5,675 bases of DNA from Deltaproteobacteria bacterium (lineage in GTDB: Bacteria; Bdellovibrionota_B; Oligoflexia; Oligoflexales; Bog-1112), in NCBI GenBank assembly GCA_016186945.1, contig JACPKR010000016.1, positions 1-5,675 of the forward strand, given 5' to 3'. A program made the position numbers and the translations under genes. Every line of letters starts with the position of its first letter. Position 1 is the first letter of the stretch. The notes beneath the pieces were generated by a model, which saw nothing but the letters and a program-made list of their open reading frames with translations, searched no databases and was not told where the DNA came from. This document shows, piece by piece, positions 1 to 5,675 of this stretch.

Positions 1-141
1 ACCGCCACCGGAGGAGTTAATTCTACCAAGAATGACCGCCCCTCCAGGACTCCAGTTACACGCCGGAAACGGACATTAACGGAGAGCGAATTAGCTAATA
101 GCCTGATGGCCCAGAGTTATCCAGGTTTTTAGTAGCGGAGT
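1..141. other. Unassigned stretch downstream of glmS
   Basis: No recognisable gene. On the plus strand, one frame is open from the window edge to a TAG at 130-132 (43 codons, ending ...ANSLMAQSYPGF). It could be the tail of a gene converging on glmS, but that length is easily open by chance and I recognise no family. A weak inverted repeat, CCTG at 103-106 and CAGG at 122-125, is followed by TTTTT on the plus strand and could be a poor terminator for such a gene. I see no convincing terminator for glmS itself. Confidence 0.3.
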
Positions 142-1974
142 TTATTCGACAGTCACCGATTTGGCAAGATTCCTGGGCTGATCCACGTCCGTACCTCTCA
201 ACACAGCGACATTATACGCAAAGAGCTGTAGGGGAATGATAGAAAGGATCGCCTGTAGCGGTTCTTCGTCAATCTGTGGGCAGGGGAGGTACTCGCTACA
301 CAGAGACCGGAAAACGTTGTCGTCTTCCGCTCCCACACCGATGATCCAGCCATCACGTGCCCGGATTTCTTCAACGTTCGACAGCATTTTTTCCCTATGT
401 CGATCTCGGGGGACTACAGCGATCACCGGCATGCTCTTGTCGATGAGTGCTATGGGGCCGTGTTTCAACTCCCCTCCCGCATAACCTTCCGCATGGATGT
501 AGGAAATTTCCTTCAGCTTGAGCGCACCCTCCAAAGCTATCGGATAACTGCACCCGCGACCTACGAACAGGGCGTTTGTAGCTTCACAAACTTTTTGAGC
601 TAAGACAAGCGTGCGAGCTTCCCCTGCTACCGCTTGGTCGACAAGAGGAGGGAGTTTGCGCAAACTGAGAAGAGATCCCGAGAACTGCTCCTGACTGATT
701 TGCTCCTTCAAGCGCGCAACCGCTAAAGCAAGGAGATAGAGATTAAGAACCATCGCAGTGAATGCTTTTGTCGAAGCTACACCTATTTCCGGTCCCGCCT
801 CCATATAAAGGGAAGCAGTCGATTCCCGAGCGATCGAGGAGAACTTCATATTGCAGACACTTAGAACCTGAGATCCAAAAGCCCTGGCTAATTTTACACT
901 AGCTAAAGTATCAGCGGTCTCCCCCGACTGAGTTATCGCTATAAGCAAGGTTTTTTCATTAAGACAGGGAGCCTGATAGCGTAGTTCGCTTGCCAAATCA
1001 ACAGAGACGGGAACTTTAAGAAGGGATTCCAGAACGTACTTGCCCACCATACCTGCAAGAAAAGCAGTCCCACAGGCAGTCACTTGAATACGGTCAAACT
1101 TGAAGAAGTCAACACCAGCTACTCCCAAGCGGTCGAGGAGTTGACCTGCGCTCTGCACCGTTGCTGCCCTGTCTAGCGTGTTGGCAATCACGGAAGGCTG
1201 TTCATGGATTTCCTTAAGCATGTAGTGACGAAAACCATGCTTTTCAGCTTGTGCTTGGGACCAATCAAGCACGATTGGAATTTTCTGAACAGGTTCACCC
1301 TGGAAGTTCCAAACTTGGACACCCTCTTTGCTGATCCGAGCCATCTCTCCGTCTTCAAGGAAAATAACTCTCCTGGTGTGTCCAACCAACGCAATCGCAT
1401 CGCTTGCGAAGAAATTTTCGCCGTCTCCCACCCCCAGCACAAGCGGAGAACCCTGCTTGACGACATAGAGAGCTTCGGGGTCGCAGGCGCTCAATATCCC
1501 CAGACCGTAAGCACCGCGGAGGCGCTGAGTTAGCTTGAGCAAAGCTTTGCGAACGTCCGGGACAAACGCCAGCTCCTGGTAAAGCAGATGGACAAAAACT
1601 TCCGTGTCTGTATCGCTTTGAAAGCGAACCCCCTTCTCAAGCAGTTCGATCTTGAGGTCTTGGTAATTTTCTAAAATCCCGTTATGAATAACAGCGAGAC
1701 CTTGTTCACGGTGCGGGTGTGCATTGACCTTTGTAGGTGCCCCATGCGTCGCCCAACGCGTATGCCCCATGCCGAGCGTTGCATCTTGGGAAAGATCGGA
1801 GAGGAGCGGCTCTAACTTGTCCAATTTTCCCTCGGACTTTATAACGCTGATCGCACTATCTTCGAGTACTGCGATTCCGGACGAGTCGTAGCCTCGATAT
1901 TCGAGAAGTTTTAAACCCTTGAAGATAAGCTCCACACAAGGCTTTTCTCCAACATACCCGATGACTCCACACAT
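142..1974 (-). CDS. glmS: Glutamine--fructose-6-phosphate aminotransferase (isomerizing)
   Basis: Converts fructose-6-phosphate and glutamine to glucosamine-6-phosphate and glutamate, the first committed step to UDP-GlcNAc; cytosolic. The 610 residues match the usual family length (about 600-610). An N-terminal class II glutamine amidotransferase domain begins MCGVIGY, with Cys2 as nucleophile after Met removal, EYRGYDSSGIA near 25-35, HTRWATHG at 71-78 and HNGILEN at 97-103. Two SIS sugar-isomerase domains follow: CGTAFLAG at 301-308 and TQSGETADT at 349-357 in the first, and the GRGCSYPIALEGALKLKEIS block with ELKHGP (His505) in the second. The C-terminus NLAKSVTVE carries the Schiff-base lysine (Lys605). 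The start is set by AAGGAG five bases upstream of ATG. It lies downstream of the glmU-type gene on the same strand, 110 bp apart, with a hairpin-rich repeat between them. All catalytic motifs are intact. No glmS ribozyme can be recognised in the short leader. Confidence 0.98.
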   Translation of the reverse strand: MCGVIGYVGEKPCVELIFKGLKLLEYRGYDSSGIAVLEDSAISVIKSEGKLDKLEPLLSDLSQDATLGMGHTRWATHGAPTKVNAHPHREQGLAVIHNGILENYQDLKIELLEKGVRFQSDTDTEVFVHLLYQELAFVPDVRKALLKLTQRLRGAYGLGILSACDPEALYVVKQGSPLVLGVGDGENFFASDAIALVGHTRRVIFLEDGEMARISKEGVQVWNFQGEPVQKIPIVLDWSQAQAEKHGFRHYMLKEIHEQPSVIANTLDRAATVQSAGQLLDRLGVAGVDFFKFDRIQVTACGTAFLAGMVGKYVLESLLKVPVSVDLASELRYQAPCLNEKTLLIAITQSGETADTLASVKLARAFGSQVLSVCNMKFSSIARESTASLYMEAGPEIGVASTKAFTAMVLNLYLLALAVARLKEQISQEQFSGSLLSLRKLPPLVDQAVAGEARTLVLAQKVCEATNALFVGRGCSYPIALEGALKLKEISYIHAEGYAGGELKHGPIALIDKSMPVIAVVPRDRHREKMLSNVEEIRARDGWIIGVGAEDDNVFRSLCSEYLPCPQIDEEPLQAILSIIPLQLFAYNVAVLRGTDVDQPRNLAKSVTVE

Positions 1975-2000: not shown

Positions 2001-2022
2001 CTATAGTGTTCAAGATAATTAA

Positions 2023-2061
2023 TTTGGGGACAAACTTTTTGAAAAAAGTTATTTCCCCAAA
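2023..2061. terminator. Long imperfect hairpin in repeat copy 1, terminator-like
   Basis: TTTGGGGA (2023-2030) pairs with TCCCCAAA (2054-2061). After a small internal loop, AACTTTTT pairs with AAAAAGTT around a tiny loop. On the minus strand the stem is followed by AT-rich AATTAATTATC rather than a clean U-tract, so termination between glmU and glmS would be partial at best. An mRNA-processing or stability role in the intercistronic region is equally possible. The equivalent in copy 2 is 3003-3039. Confidence 0.4.
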
Positions 2062-2084
2062 CCCCTTTTTAAAAACTTCAGTAT

Positions 2085-2918
2085 TTAAAGTTTTTTGGGG
2101 GGAGGTGTGGAGGGGAACTTTTTTTCAAAAAAGGTCCTCTCCACAAATTCTTTTTCCCAGATGCTATTGACACCCGATAGCGATTGCCACTGGTCTGTCA
2201 CGAATACGCTTGCCTTTTGTCCTTTACAAGCAATCGCCACACAGTCGGTAAGGTAATATTCACCTTGCGCATTATCATTACGAAGCTCTCCTAAAAGTTC
2301 GAAAAGGTATGCGACGTTCGCATACATCACTCCCGAATTGCAGAGAGTGATTTTCTTAGCGTTTGCATCTGCATCCTTTTCCTCCACTATACCGTCCAAA
2401 GTCCCCTGGTGGGATAAAATGAGTCGGCCATACCCCGTGGGATCGGGGACCCGCATGCCTAGCACGCCTAGCCGGGAGTCTAGCGCCTGGCAGTGAGCGA
2501 TGAAGGTTCTCAGCAGTCTGCCGTCGAGGCCTGGAATGTCCCCTGCACAGACAAGAACATTTCCCGGTTTCACAGAACTCCCCCTGGCCAGGTACCCCGT
2601 TCCATAGGAGGGAGCCTCCAGACCCTGAAAAAAAGCGGAGGAAGACGCTACTGCACCTGCCGTTCCGTTGATATTTTTTTGTACACAGACACCGAGATCG
2701 GGAAAGCGAACAAGGAAACTTTCAAACGGTGCTAGGTCTTCTCCCAGGATCACGCAGTAATTCTGACAGGGAGTATTCCGTAAGGCTTCCAAAACCCGCG
2801 CCAACATGATTTCCCCAGCGACCGAGTGGAGAACCTTGGGGGTCTCACTCTGCATCCGCTTTCCTTTTCCTGCCGCAAGAATCAATCCTGTCAAAGGCAA
2901 AACCATGTTCCCTCTCAT
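2085..2918 (-). CDS. glmU: GlmU-type N-acetylglucosamine-1-phosphate uridylyltransferase, lacking the acetyltransferase domain
   Basis: Expected to transfer UMP from UTP to GlcNAc-1-phosphate, giving UDP-GlcNAc. Numbered from ATG 2918 (277 residues), the nucleotidyltransferase signature LILAAGKGKRM is at 12-22 with PKVLH at 27-31. Further matches to GlmU are the GT of NGTAGAV at 85-86, the metal-site AGDIP (Asp127), GYGR at 162-165, IVEEKD near 177-182, NSG at 194-196, QGEYYLTD at 218-225 and GVN at 249-251, whose Asn matches the second metal ligand of E. coli GlmU. The protein ends 26 residues later; ordinary GlmU continues with a left-handed beta-helix to about 450 residues. Codons 250-277 and the stop lie in repeat copy 1. 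About 18 extra residues sit between the FF after the GT motif and AGD. ATG 2918 has AGGGA five bases upstream; ATG 2942 has no Shine-Dalgarno, and ATG 2906 has one too close. Probably active as a monofunctional enzyme. Alternatively it is a 3'-truncated glmU, or a GlmU-like uridylyltransferase of other specificity. Confidence 0.88.
   Translation of the reverse strand: MRGNMVLPLTGLILAAGKGKRMQSETPKVLHSVAGEIMLARVLEALRNTPCQNYCVILGEDLAPFESFLVRFPDLGVCVQKNINGTAGAVASSSAFFQGLEAPSYGTGYLARGSSVKPGNVLVCAGDIPGLDGRLLRTFIAHCQALDSRLGVLGMRVPDPTGYGRLILSHQGTLDGIVEEKDADANAKKITLCNSGVMYANVAYLFELLGELRNDNAQGEYYLTDCVAIACKGQKASVFVTDQWQSLSGVNSIWEKEFVERTFFEKKFPSTPPPKKL
2106..2145 (+). terminator. Long G/T-rich hairpin inside the glmU 3' end (repeat copy 1)
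   Basis: TGTGGAG (2106-2112) pairs with CTCCACA (2139-2145). The stem continues through a G-U wobble, one A-G mismatch and a T-run/A-run to a four-base loop, roughly 17 pairs in all. On the plus strand it is followed by AATTCTTTTTCCC, so it is terminator-like in that direction. On the minus strand it is inside the glmU coding sequence. The counterpart in copy 2 is 3085-3124, just upstream of the HEAT-protein gene, where it could insulate that gene from upstream transcription. Function is inferred from structure only. Confidence 0.4.
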
Positions 2919-2942
2919 AAGCTTCCCTGATCCTCCCTCCAT

Positions 2943-2973
2943 TTTATCGAAATCGTAAGGCTTTTCATTTCAA
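2943..2973 (-). promoter_or_regulatory. Possible weak glmU promoter
   Basis: Reading the minus strand, TTGAAA (2973-2968) is followed after 19 bases by GATAAA (2948-2943). That would place the transcript start near 2935 and leave a short leader containing GGAGG and AGGGA before ATG 2918. The spacer is longer than ideal and the -10 match is modest. Confidence 0.2.
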
Positions 2974-2981
2974 AAGCGCTA

Positions 2982-3150
2982 ATAGCGTTCAAGATAATCA
3001 ATTTGGGGACAAACTTTTTGAAAAAAGTTGTTTCCCCAACCCCCTTTTCAAAAACTTCAGTATTTAAAGTTTTTTGGGGGGAGGTGTGGAGGGGAACTTT
3101 TTTTCAAAAAAGGTACTCTCCACAAATTCTTTTTCCCAAATACTATAGAC
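2982..3150. repeat. Hairpin-rich direct repeat, copy 2 (between divergent genes)
   Basis: Second copy of the 169-bp repeat, in the same orientation as 2003-2171. It occupies most of the roughly 300-bp gap between the divergent glmU-type and HEAT-protein genes. Its minus strand retains the reading frame that encodes the glmU C-terminus (tail SIWEKEF...PPKKL then TAA, one substitution in the shared tail), but an in-frame TGA lies just upstream, so it is not a gene here. Its left edge abuts an inverted repeat, CGCTA-A-TAGCG (2977-2987). Its right edge supplies the TAGACC that may serve as -35 for the HEAT-protein gene. Confidence 0.92.
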
Positions 3151-3174
3151 CTCCCTATTTCAGCGAATTAAAAT
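3146..3174 (+). promoter_or_regulatory. Candidate promoter of the HEAT-protein gene
   Basis: TAGACC (3146-3151, 4 of 6 to the sigma-70 -35 consensus) is followed after 17 bases by TAAAAT (3169-3174, 5 of 6 to the -10). Transcription would start near 3181, just ahead of a leader hairpin and the AAGGA that serves the TTG start at 3218. The -35 lies at the edge of repeat copy 2. Confidence 0.35.
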
Positions 3175-3179
3175 GCCTT

Positions 3180-3197
3180 GGCACGATTCGACGTGCC
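3180..3197 (+). promoter_or_regulatory. Perfect inverted repeat in the HEAT-gene leader
   Basis: GGCACG (3180-3185) and CGTGCC (3192-3197) form a perfect six-base inverted repeat around ATTCGA. It lies nine bases upstream of the AAGGA ribosome binding site, with no U-tract after it, so it is not an intrinsic terminator. It could be an mRNA leader hairpin or a repressor site at the transcript start. Confidence 0.4.
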
Positions 3198-3217
3198 CTT
3201 ATGACAAGGATCAGCAA

Positions 3218-3955
3218 TTGGGAATTTTAAGCCTGTACAGAGACCTCAAAAAAAAGAGAAGAGAGCGTTCGATCGCCAAGAGCTTAAAACTAATACAAAA
3301 TCCGAAGGCGATTAGGGAAGAGCGTGCTTCAGCTATCGAATTTTTCAAAAACCTGGACGACCCGCAGCTTGCTGTCCCAGCCCTTCTTAAACGCTTCGAT
3401 TTCAGCCTTGACCACGGCATTAACGATACCCGCGAAAAAGAGTCGGCGATGGAGGGAATCCTTAGATTCAAGGACGCTGCCCTACCTTTTGTCCGTGAAC
3501 ACCTCGCAAAGTCAAATCGAATTGCATGGCCTATCAAGATCTTGCAACGTCTGGCGGAAGAAGCCCAGACCATCGAAGCGCTGGAAGCATCGCTCGACTT
3601 CGGCGAGGTCGACTTCGACCGCGATAAAGTAGACAAGAACTACGACGTCCTTTGTTACCTCCGTGATTTTCAACTGCCTGATCAGGGGAAAAAGCTCCTA
3701 CGCTTCCTCTCCGCCCATGACGAACGGGTTCGCTTCGCCGTCACCGAAGTGATCCTCGCCCAAAATGCCCAGGAAGTCGCCAAGCATCTCGAACCGTTCC
3801 TTCTCGACGAGTCTGCAGAGAATACCAGGGTCCGACAAACCGTCATTGATGCTTATCTGGAAAAAGGCTGGATCCTCTCCCTTCCCCAAATCCCAGAAGG
3901 CCCTCTGGCTGAAGGCGTTGCTGTTAGCAAAGATCGTAAACTGAAAAAGGCATAA
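3218..3955 (+). CDS. HEAT-repeat domain protein of unknown function
   Basis: Probably a soluble alpha-solenoid protein; the molecular role is unknown. From TTG 3218 it has 245 residues and no signal peptide or membrane segment. A basic patch KKKRRER is at 11-17. Paired helices follow, with HEAT-like units near 36-62 (RASAIEFF...AVPALLKRF), 74-99 (AMEGILRF...LPFVREHL), 131-155, 158-188 (DERVRFAVTEVILAQ) and 192-208 (RVRQTVIDAYLEKGW). I chose TTG 3218 because AAGGA lies seven bases upstream. It also gives an N-terminus (M)GILSLYRDLKKKRRER resembling the MGLF...KKR starts I recall for related HEAT proteins. The longer ATG at 3173 (260 residues) has no Shine-Dalgarno and would place the leader hairpin inside the gene. 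It precedes the FtsB-like and lipoprotein genes on the same strand. The repeats suggest a protein-binding scaffold; that is inference. Confidence 0.85.
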   Translation: MGILSLYRDLKKKRRERSIAKSLKLIQNPKAIREERASAIEFFKNLDDPQLAVPALLKRFDFSLDHGINDTREKESAMEGILRFKDAALPFVREHLAKSNRIAWPIKILQRLAEEAQTIEALEASLDFGEVDFDRDKVDKNYDVLCYLRDFQLPDQGKKLLRFLSAHDERVRFAVTEVILAQNAQEVAKHLEPFLLDESAENTRVRQTVIDAYLEKGWILSLPQIPEGPLAEGVAVSKDRKLKKA

Positions 3956-3986
3956 TTGGAGGAAGCAGCTGCGCAGTTTCCTCCAA
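3956..3986. other. Hairpin immediately after the HEAT-gene stop
   Basis: TTGGAGGAA (3956-3964) and TTCCTCCAA (3978-3986) are a perfect nine-base inverted repeat around a 13-base loop, starting on the base after the HEAT-gene TAA. No U-tract follows (ACCACC), so it is a poor intrinsic terminator. It could protect the 3' end, be a regulatory hairpin, or simply separate this gene from the next promoter at 3996-4023. Confidence 0.55.
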
Positions 3987-3995
3987 ACCACCTCC

Positions 3996-4023
3996 TTGCT
4001 ACAGGGGGGTCCTGTGTTAGAAT
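3996..4023 (+). promoter_or_regulatory. Extended -10 promoter for the FtsB-like/lipoprotein pair
   Basis: TTGCTA (3996-4001) is followed after 16 bases by TAGAAT (4018-4023). TGT immediately before the -10 gives an extended TGn-TAGAAT element. The expected start of transcription, about seven bases after the -10, falls at about 4030-4031, essentially on the ATG of the next gene. This would make a leaderless mRNA, which fits the lack of any Shine-Dalgarno before that ATG. Confidence 0.5.
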
Positions 4024-4030
4024 ATTAGAA

Positions 4031-5529: not shown

Positions 5530-5546
5530 AATTAGGCTAGGGCGTG

Positions 5547-5575
5547 TCGTCAAATTCAATTTAACAATGTAAAAT
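5547..5575 (+). promoter_or_regulatory. Possible transposase promoter in the IS left end
   Basis: TCGTCA (5547-5552, 4 of 6), a 17-base spacer and TAAAAT (5570-5575, 5 of 6) form a plausible weak promoter. Its -35 lies inside the terminal repeat, a common arrangement that lets transposase binding shut off its own promoter. Confidence 0.3.
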
Positions 5576-5608
5576 CTGGGGAACTTATCCAAAATTTGGA
5601 GTTTCCTC

Positions 5609-5675
5609 ATGAGGCGCTATGGACTGCGTGACGACCAGTGGGAGCGGATCCAAGGGTTCCTTCCAGGTCGAATTG
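5609..5675 (+). CDS. IS5-family transposase, N-terminal fragment
   Basis: Begins at ATG 5609 with GGAG (5598-5601) seven bases upstream, and runs off the window after 22 codons. The visible start MRRYGLRDDQWERI-QGFLPG matches the (L)xDxQWxxIxxxLPG opening typical of IS5/IS427 transposases (the DUF4096-type N-terminal helix region). The DDE catalytic core is not in view. Many IS427-group elements split the transposase into two overlapping frames joined by frameshifting; whether this one does cannot be seen here. Confidence 0.85.
   Translation, partial: MRRYGLRDDQWERIQGFLPGRI

Follow-up and report, generated by a model that had tools for sequence, protein, structure and literature searches.

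Background

Bacterial MITEs, among them Correia/NEMIS and RUP, are intergenic elements with TA-ended inverted repeats and of a size similar to that of the repeat studied here, and fused reading frames are known for some of their families (PMC2229807; PMC10969869; PMC2759123). Correia/NEMIS elements of Neisseria are 100-200 bp in length, possess TA-ended inverted repeats and hairpins, exist in more than 100 mostly intergenic copies, occur in two forms differing by an internal segment, and contain frames that can fuse to genes (PMC2229807). The repeat described here has all of these features, whereas Correia/NEMIS has longer inverted repeats and an IHF site and belongs to a different phylum (PMC2229807), and the two interiors are unrelated as far as known. 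RUP of Streptococcus pneumoniae is likewise comparable, being 107 bp long and present in about 108 intergenic copies, with 9-bp inverted repeats and TA termini, but a role in transposition is best supported for its TIRs, and it carries stops in all frames (PMC2229807). RU-1/ERIC, RU-2 and RPE are small mobile sequences with frames fused to host proteins (PMC2759123; PMC2229807), as in the present case; here, in contrast, the fusion takes the form of a common 3'-terminal tail with its own stop, and the sequence is unrelated. Repetitive extragenic palindromes associated with Y1/RAYT also exist as many intergenic palindromic copies, whereas our element has terminal inverted repeats and no fixed flanking tetranucleotide. 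By this comparison, the closest kinds are MITEs of bacteria, with Correia/NEMIS and RUP as examples.

In this study, we analyzed one whole contig of 5,675 bp (the window) from a 2.66-Mb, 76-contig metagenome-assembled genome of the Oligoflexales (Bdellovibrionota), the assembly being 91% complete. A sequence-only reading of the window had noticed a glmU-type gene between two near-identical direct repeats, and proposed either that a dispersed element had recombined around the gene or that a gene-plus-repeat unit had been inserted or duplicated. With a probability of about 0.8, we conclude that the 169-bp sequence is a MITE present at about 250 loci, two independent insertions of which flank a glmU in its ancestral place.

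Results and discussion

The two repeats in the window

The repeat search of the window identified two gap-free copies of 169 nt at 2003-2171 and 2982-3150, in the same orientation and with an offset of 979, which confirms the direct repeats flanking a single glmU-type gene. Their identity is 94.7% (160/169, nine mismatches), the longest identical run between them is 65 bp, and the sequences flanking them are unrelated to each other. Alignment of all copies showed that the family starts with CTATAG and finishes with CTATAG, which moves the true bounds two bases to the left, to about 2001-2169 and 2980-3148 (Table 1). Three interior hairpins are retained throughout the element family, and copy 1 folds with z = -5.3 as DNA (0 of 200 shuffles were as stable) and z = -4.2 as RNA; the earlier remark that both copies keep the same hairpins and minus-strand reading frame was also correct.

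Table 1. Features of the glmU locus in the window
Feature	Position	Strand	Description
glmS	142..1974	-	downstream of glmU, same strand; start codon 26 bp from copy 1
Class A element copy 1	2001..2169	+	ends CTATAGTGTT...ATGCTATTG; between glmU and glmS
Hairpin 1 of copy 1	2023..2060	+	GGGG arm, AAACTTTTT/AAAAAAGTT arm
Hairpin 2 of copy 1	2061..2101	+	
Hairpin 3 of copy 1	2105..2144	+	most stable of the three
glmU N-terminal (uridyltransferase) domain gene	2085..2942	-	
Element-encoded GlmU C-terminal tail and stop	2085..2168	-	N259 to L285: NSIWEKEFVERTFFEKKFPSTPPPKKL
Class A element copy 2	2980..3148	+	ends TAATAGCGTT...ATACTATAG; divergent gap between glmU and HEAT-repeat gene
HEAT-repeat protein gene	3173..3955	+	divergent neighbour, conserved across the Oligoflexales; start about 24 bp from copy 2

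The contig that forms the window is short and ends in sequences common to other contigs, as might be expected if the second copy were an assembly artefact produced by a mis-join. The 65-bp run is shorter than the 141-bp overlaps at contig ends, so the assembler could separate the copies, and the conserved HEAT-glmU-glmS order backs the join; a mis-join is hardly credible. Contig C40 begins with the same 141 bases as the window (1-141), which suggests that another repeat lies at this break in the assembly and that the assembler used a word length of about 141. At the 3' end, 115 bp are common to the start of contig C27, indicating that the contig breaks within a multi-copy insertion sequence; window 5537-5675 contains the left end of an IS5-like transposase gene (MRRYGLRDDQWERIQGFLPGR), which was named by eye, and no Pfam match to this 22-aa fragment was obtained. 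A second, more abundant repeat family is represented at window 3944-4027, with the consensus core TTGGAGGAACCAGCTGCGCAGTTTCCTCCAAACCACCTCCTTGC and a REP-like hairpin; the 55% of the genome that was sampled contains it at 275 places, of which 266 do not overlap predicted genes.

Copy number and genomic distribution

A sequence search of the same genome returned at least 41 matches to the repeat. Using a 29-base pattern with up to 3 mismatches, 129 left ends were found genome-wide, against 0 for a reversed control pattern, so that the abundance of the repeat is far beyond chance. Within 24 contigs or contig parts totalling 1.4685 Mb (55% of the genome), 142 element loci were identified, including 61 class A, 17 class B and 64 truncated copies. 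Scaling to the whole genome gives about 257 loci (roughly 250), an estimate biased slightly upward by the inclusion of some contigs picked because they contained copies. Elements account for 1.3% of the DNA sampled, with a density of about 1 per 10 kb. The dispersed element suspected from the window is therefore real, and the alternative that only two copies exist is contradicted by the sample alone. Besides the window pair, two other element pairs lie less than 1 kb apart in the sample. By a Poisson estimate, about 9% of elements should have a neighbour no more than 981 bp away, and only three such neighbours were seen, so the 979-bp spacing is unremarkable.

The genome search for copy number, orientation and gene position proposed by the sequence-only reading showed nearly all of the sampled loci to be intergenic: although 78% of the sampled DNA is predicted coding by a simple codon model, 141 of the 142 loci lie between predicted genes. 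The sole copy inside a predicted gene (C18:4203-4343) is left-truncated, and an 883-aa ORF continues through it in frame. The genes on either side of a locus show co-directional, divergent and convergent orientations at about background proportions; the lack of an excess of convergent genes indicates that the element is not a terminator favoured there. The 3' ends of 38 predicted genes fall inside an element, many of them at the TAG of the terminal repeat.

Anatomy and classification of the element

Copies of the element are bounded by 10-bp terminal inverted repeats, CTATAGTATT, which are exact over 10 bp in many copies, both ends reading inward CTATAGTRTT. The outermost C is kept in about 70% and the outermost G in about 53% of copies, and these bases may partly be a product of the target site. 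In dozens of unrelated flanks, similarity ends at the same base on both sides. Class A elements are 169 bp in length and class B elements mostly 172-215 bp. The 17 class B copies have positions ~1-39 and 107-169 in common with class A, lack half of hairpin 1, and carry a different palindromic interior built on TGTCATCCCGCGGCTTGACCGCGGGATCC. The presence of two interiors behind one pair of ends points to the ends as the part that is recognised. The palindrome TGTCATCCCGCGGCTTGACCGCGGGATCC is also found inside copies of the 169-bp element at C54:29391-29587 and C52:144107-144329 as nested repeats, in one case in the loop side of hairpin 3.

An element of less than 500 bp with CTATAGTATT at both ends, no transposase gene, only short coding frames, and many dispersed copies (142 loci sampled) having common ends in unrelated flanks corresponds to a MITE. 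No target-site duplication was detected outside the ends of 52 full copies, and a TA duplication would hide within CTATAG. Comparison with paralogues gave no convincing empty sites, and relatives are too distant for empty sites to be defined at the base level; we infer the mobility of the element from its anatomy.

Sequence variation among copies

Among 58 full copies, common alternative bases were found in unpaired columns only: 12 columns with more than 15% variation were listed, and none of the 80 stem columns was among them. Private changes amount to 0.54% in stems and 0.86% in internal loops (p = 0.14). We read this pattern as constraint on the hairpins in spreading lineages, with near-neutral drift afterwards. 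All four allele combinations occur at 45 of 66 pairs of variable sites, which makes segment exchange between copies possible; as the decay of linkage with distance, examined as a test of recombination between copies, was not significant, recurrent mutation stays an alternative.

Stems free of common variation, together with the 38 genes that terminate inside an element and the position of the glmU-glmS copy within a co-oriented gene pair, might also be expected of a structured regulatory RNA or a processing or termination module, under selection at gene ends and mobile only long ago. Such a module should not have a replaceable interior, as seen in class B, and the element is not enriched between convergent genes, shows no intrinsic-terminator pattern and has no match in Rfam. 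The private mutations, barely rarer in stems, fit constraint on spreading lineages rather than on single copies. We consider this explanation unlikely and retain the MITE.

Gene order at the glmU locus

The glmU locus was examined in 29 relatives: glmS follows glmU in nearly all of them, the divergent HEAT-repeat gene is present in most, and the repeat is absent from every one. Short gaps separate glmU from glmS in relatives; in G001, a genome of the same genus, this gap measures 9 bp, and about 143 bp lie between the HEAT gene and glmU. By comparison with relatives, the true start of glmU is probably Met17 at 2894. Since the HEAT-glmU-glmS order is kept in relatives free of the repeat, glmU lies in its ancestral place and the repeats came later. 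When the 58 copies are ordered by their similarity to either window copy, the other window copy comes only about 25th and 28th; the two are hence not recent duplicates of each other.

These data bear directly on the insertion or duplication of the gene and one repeat as a unit, or the capture of glmU by recombination between repeats, either of which would account for the geometry of one gene between two direct repeats. Both are largely refuted by synteny, glmU being situated between the HEAT gene and glmS where no repeat exists, and are also disfavoured by the average mutual similarity of the copies, by the unrelated flanks beyond 169 bp, and by the two further close pairs in the sample; we regard them as very improbable. 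The earlier interpretation is thus supported in part: dispersion of the element was confirmed, whereas gene-plus-repeat insertion or duplication, and recombination of a dispersed repeat around glmU, were not. Nor was the same arrangement found in the relatives examined, these being without the repeat. Loss of glmU by homologous recombination between the window copies, as had been pointed out, would be possible in principle.

The GlmU protein and its C-terminal tail

The gene between the repeats matches the glmU type with an E value of 5e-54, and the uridyltransferase domain is present (TIGR01173 positions 4-239 of 452, E 2e-52), while the C-terminal left-handed beta-helix acetyltransferase domain of GlmU is absent. 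The designation as a glmU-type gene accordingly applies to the uridyltransferase half and not to a full-length glmU. Relatives in family f1 likewise end at about 250-270 aa, and in f6, f8 and f9 a hexapeptide-repeat region persists in shortened form. As family relatives already are without the acetyltransferase domain, its loss predates the insertion and was not caused by the repeat. Across the order, the domain is lost wholly or mostly in several families (L043, L045, L051, L060 and window 2085-2942).

The last 27 codons of glmU and its own TAA stop lie within the downstream copy (copy 1). Relatives have about 12-20 residues of DREQLxxxExxM type after a conserved GVN motif, and the homology of the window GlmU to them ends at GVN. 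Judged from this comparison, copy 1 has replaced the native C-terminus of the predicted protein (about 15-20 residues) with 27 element-encoded residues. No remnant of the native tail was found in the 26 bp before glmS, which indicates that this sequence was lost at or after the insertion. Residue N259, which corresponds to the metal-binding Asn227 of E. coli GlmU, is invariant among the compared GlmU sequences; its codon, AAT, falls at element positions with the consensus TAT. Copy 1 kept this asparagine either through a base from the target or through selection.

The same tail terminates a ModA-like, a PBP4-like and an MqnC-like protein. We tentatively propose, as one joint claim that we hold to be possible although doubtful, that a hairpin-constrained, segment-exchanging family may repeatedly write one 25-27-residue tail and stop onto unrelated proteins, the essential cell-wall enzyme GlmU included, and that the native GlmU C-terminal helix may have been replaced exactly at the conserved metal-binding asparagine.

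Transposases and relatives of the element

No match to an IS630-type DDE_3 transposase (PF13358), as would accompany IS630/Tc1-type MITEs, was found in the 91%-complete assembly. In the 55% of the genome sampled, neither a transposase-bearing copy nor a cognate autonomous transposon with matching ends was detected, and the sampled contigs contained no intact multi-copy transposase ORFs. Transposons present in multiple copies often go missing where contigs break. DDE_Tnp_1 is represented by just two partial genes, both at contig ends.

The presence of Y1 transposase genes in the genome, the hairpins near both ends and the lack of a visible target duplication are consistent with REP-like palindromes that owe their movement to a Y1 enzyme (of the IS200/IS605 or RAYT type) instead of a DDE transposase. 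REP/RAYT or IS200/IS605 elements should have no inverted-repeat ends and a fixed flanking tetranucleotide; here, the perfect 10-bp terminal inverted repeat is unexpected for that class, no fixed tetranucleotide target is seen in the left flank, half of hairpin 1 is missing in class B, and the one decayed IS605-type remnant has only a class B copy near it. Y1 transposases were rejected as movers, their genes being present but the anatomy of the element not fitting, and we rate this origin as improbable.

For the MITE, the following course can be envisaged. A short non-autonomous transposon-like element would have increased in number within this lineage until it occupied about 250 loci, and two copies would have inserted independently, one on each side of a glmU already located between the HEAT-repeat gene and glmS. 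A transposase supplied in trans would recognise the CTATAGTATT ends and insert at TA-containing sites; that it is an IS630-like or other DDE enzyme is a guess, to which we give somewhat less than even odds. The hairpin stems would be required for spread, and the new GlmU tail would be tolerated.

Element copies were searched for in 55 relatives and about 57 other genomes of the phylum, and none was found beyond two short matches, of 27 nt in G003 and 24 nt in G019, which we judged to be chance. Searches of phage, plasmid, viral and GTDB collections (including exact-pattern scans of GTDB genomes and viral contigs) returned no match, and no paper on MITEs in Bdellovibrio was found in the literature searched. 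By these searches, the repeat family is apparently undescribed.

Conclusions

The kind of element is ordinary, the genome was previously unexamined, and the rewritten GlmU tail is one attractive detail. The dense repeat family accounts for an arrangement that looks odd in the window, and the ancestral position of glmU and its domain loss can be told apart from the later insertions. The occurrence of one tail on four unrelated proteins provides natural replicates, and glmU offers a case in which the rewriting of an essential protein's end by a mobile non-coding repeat can be put to the test.
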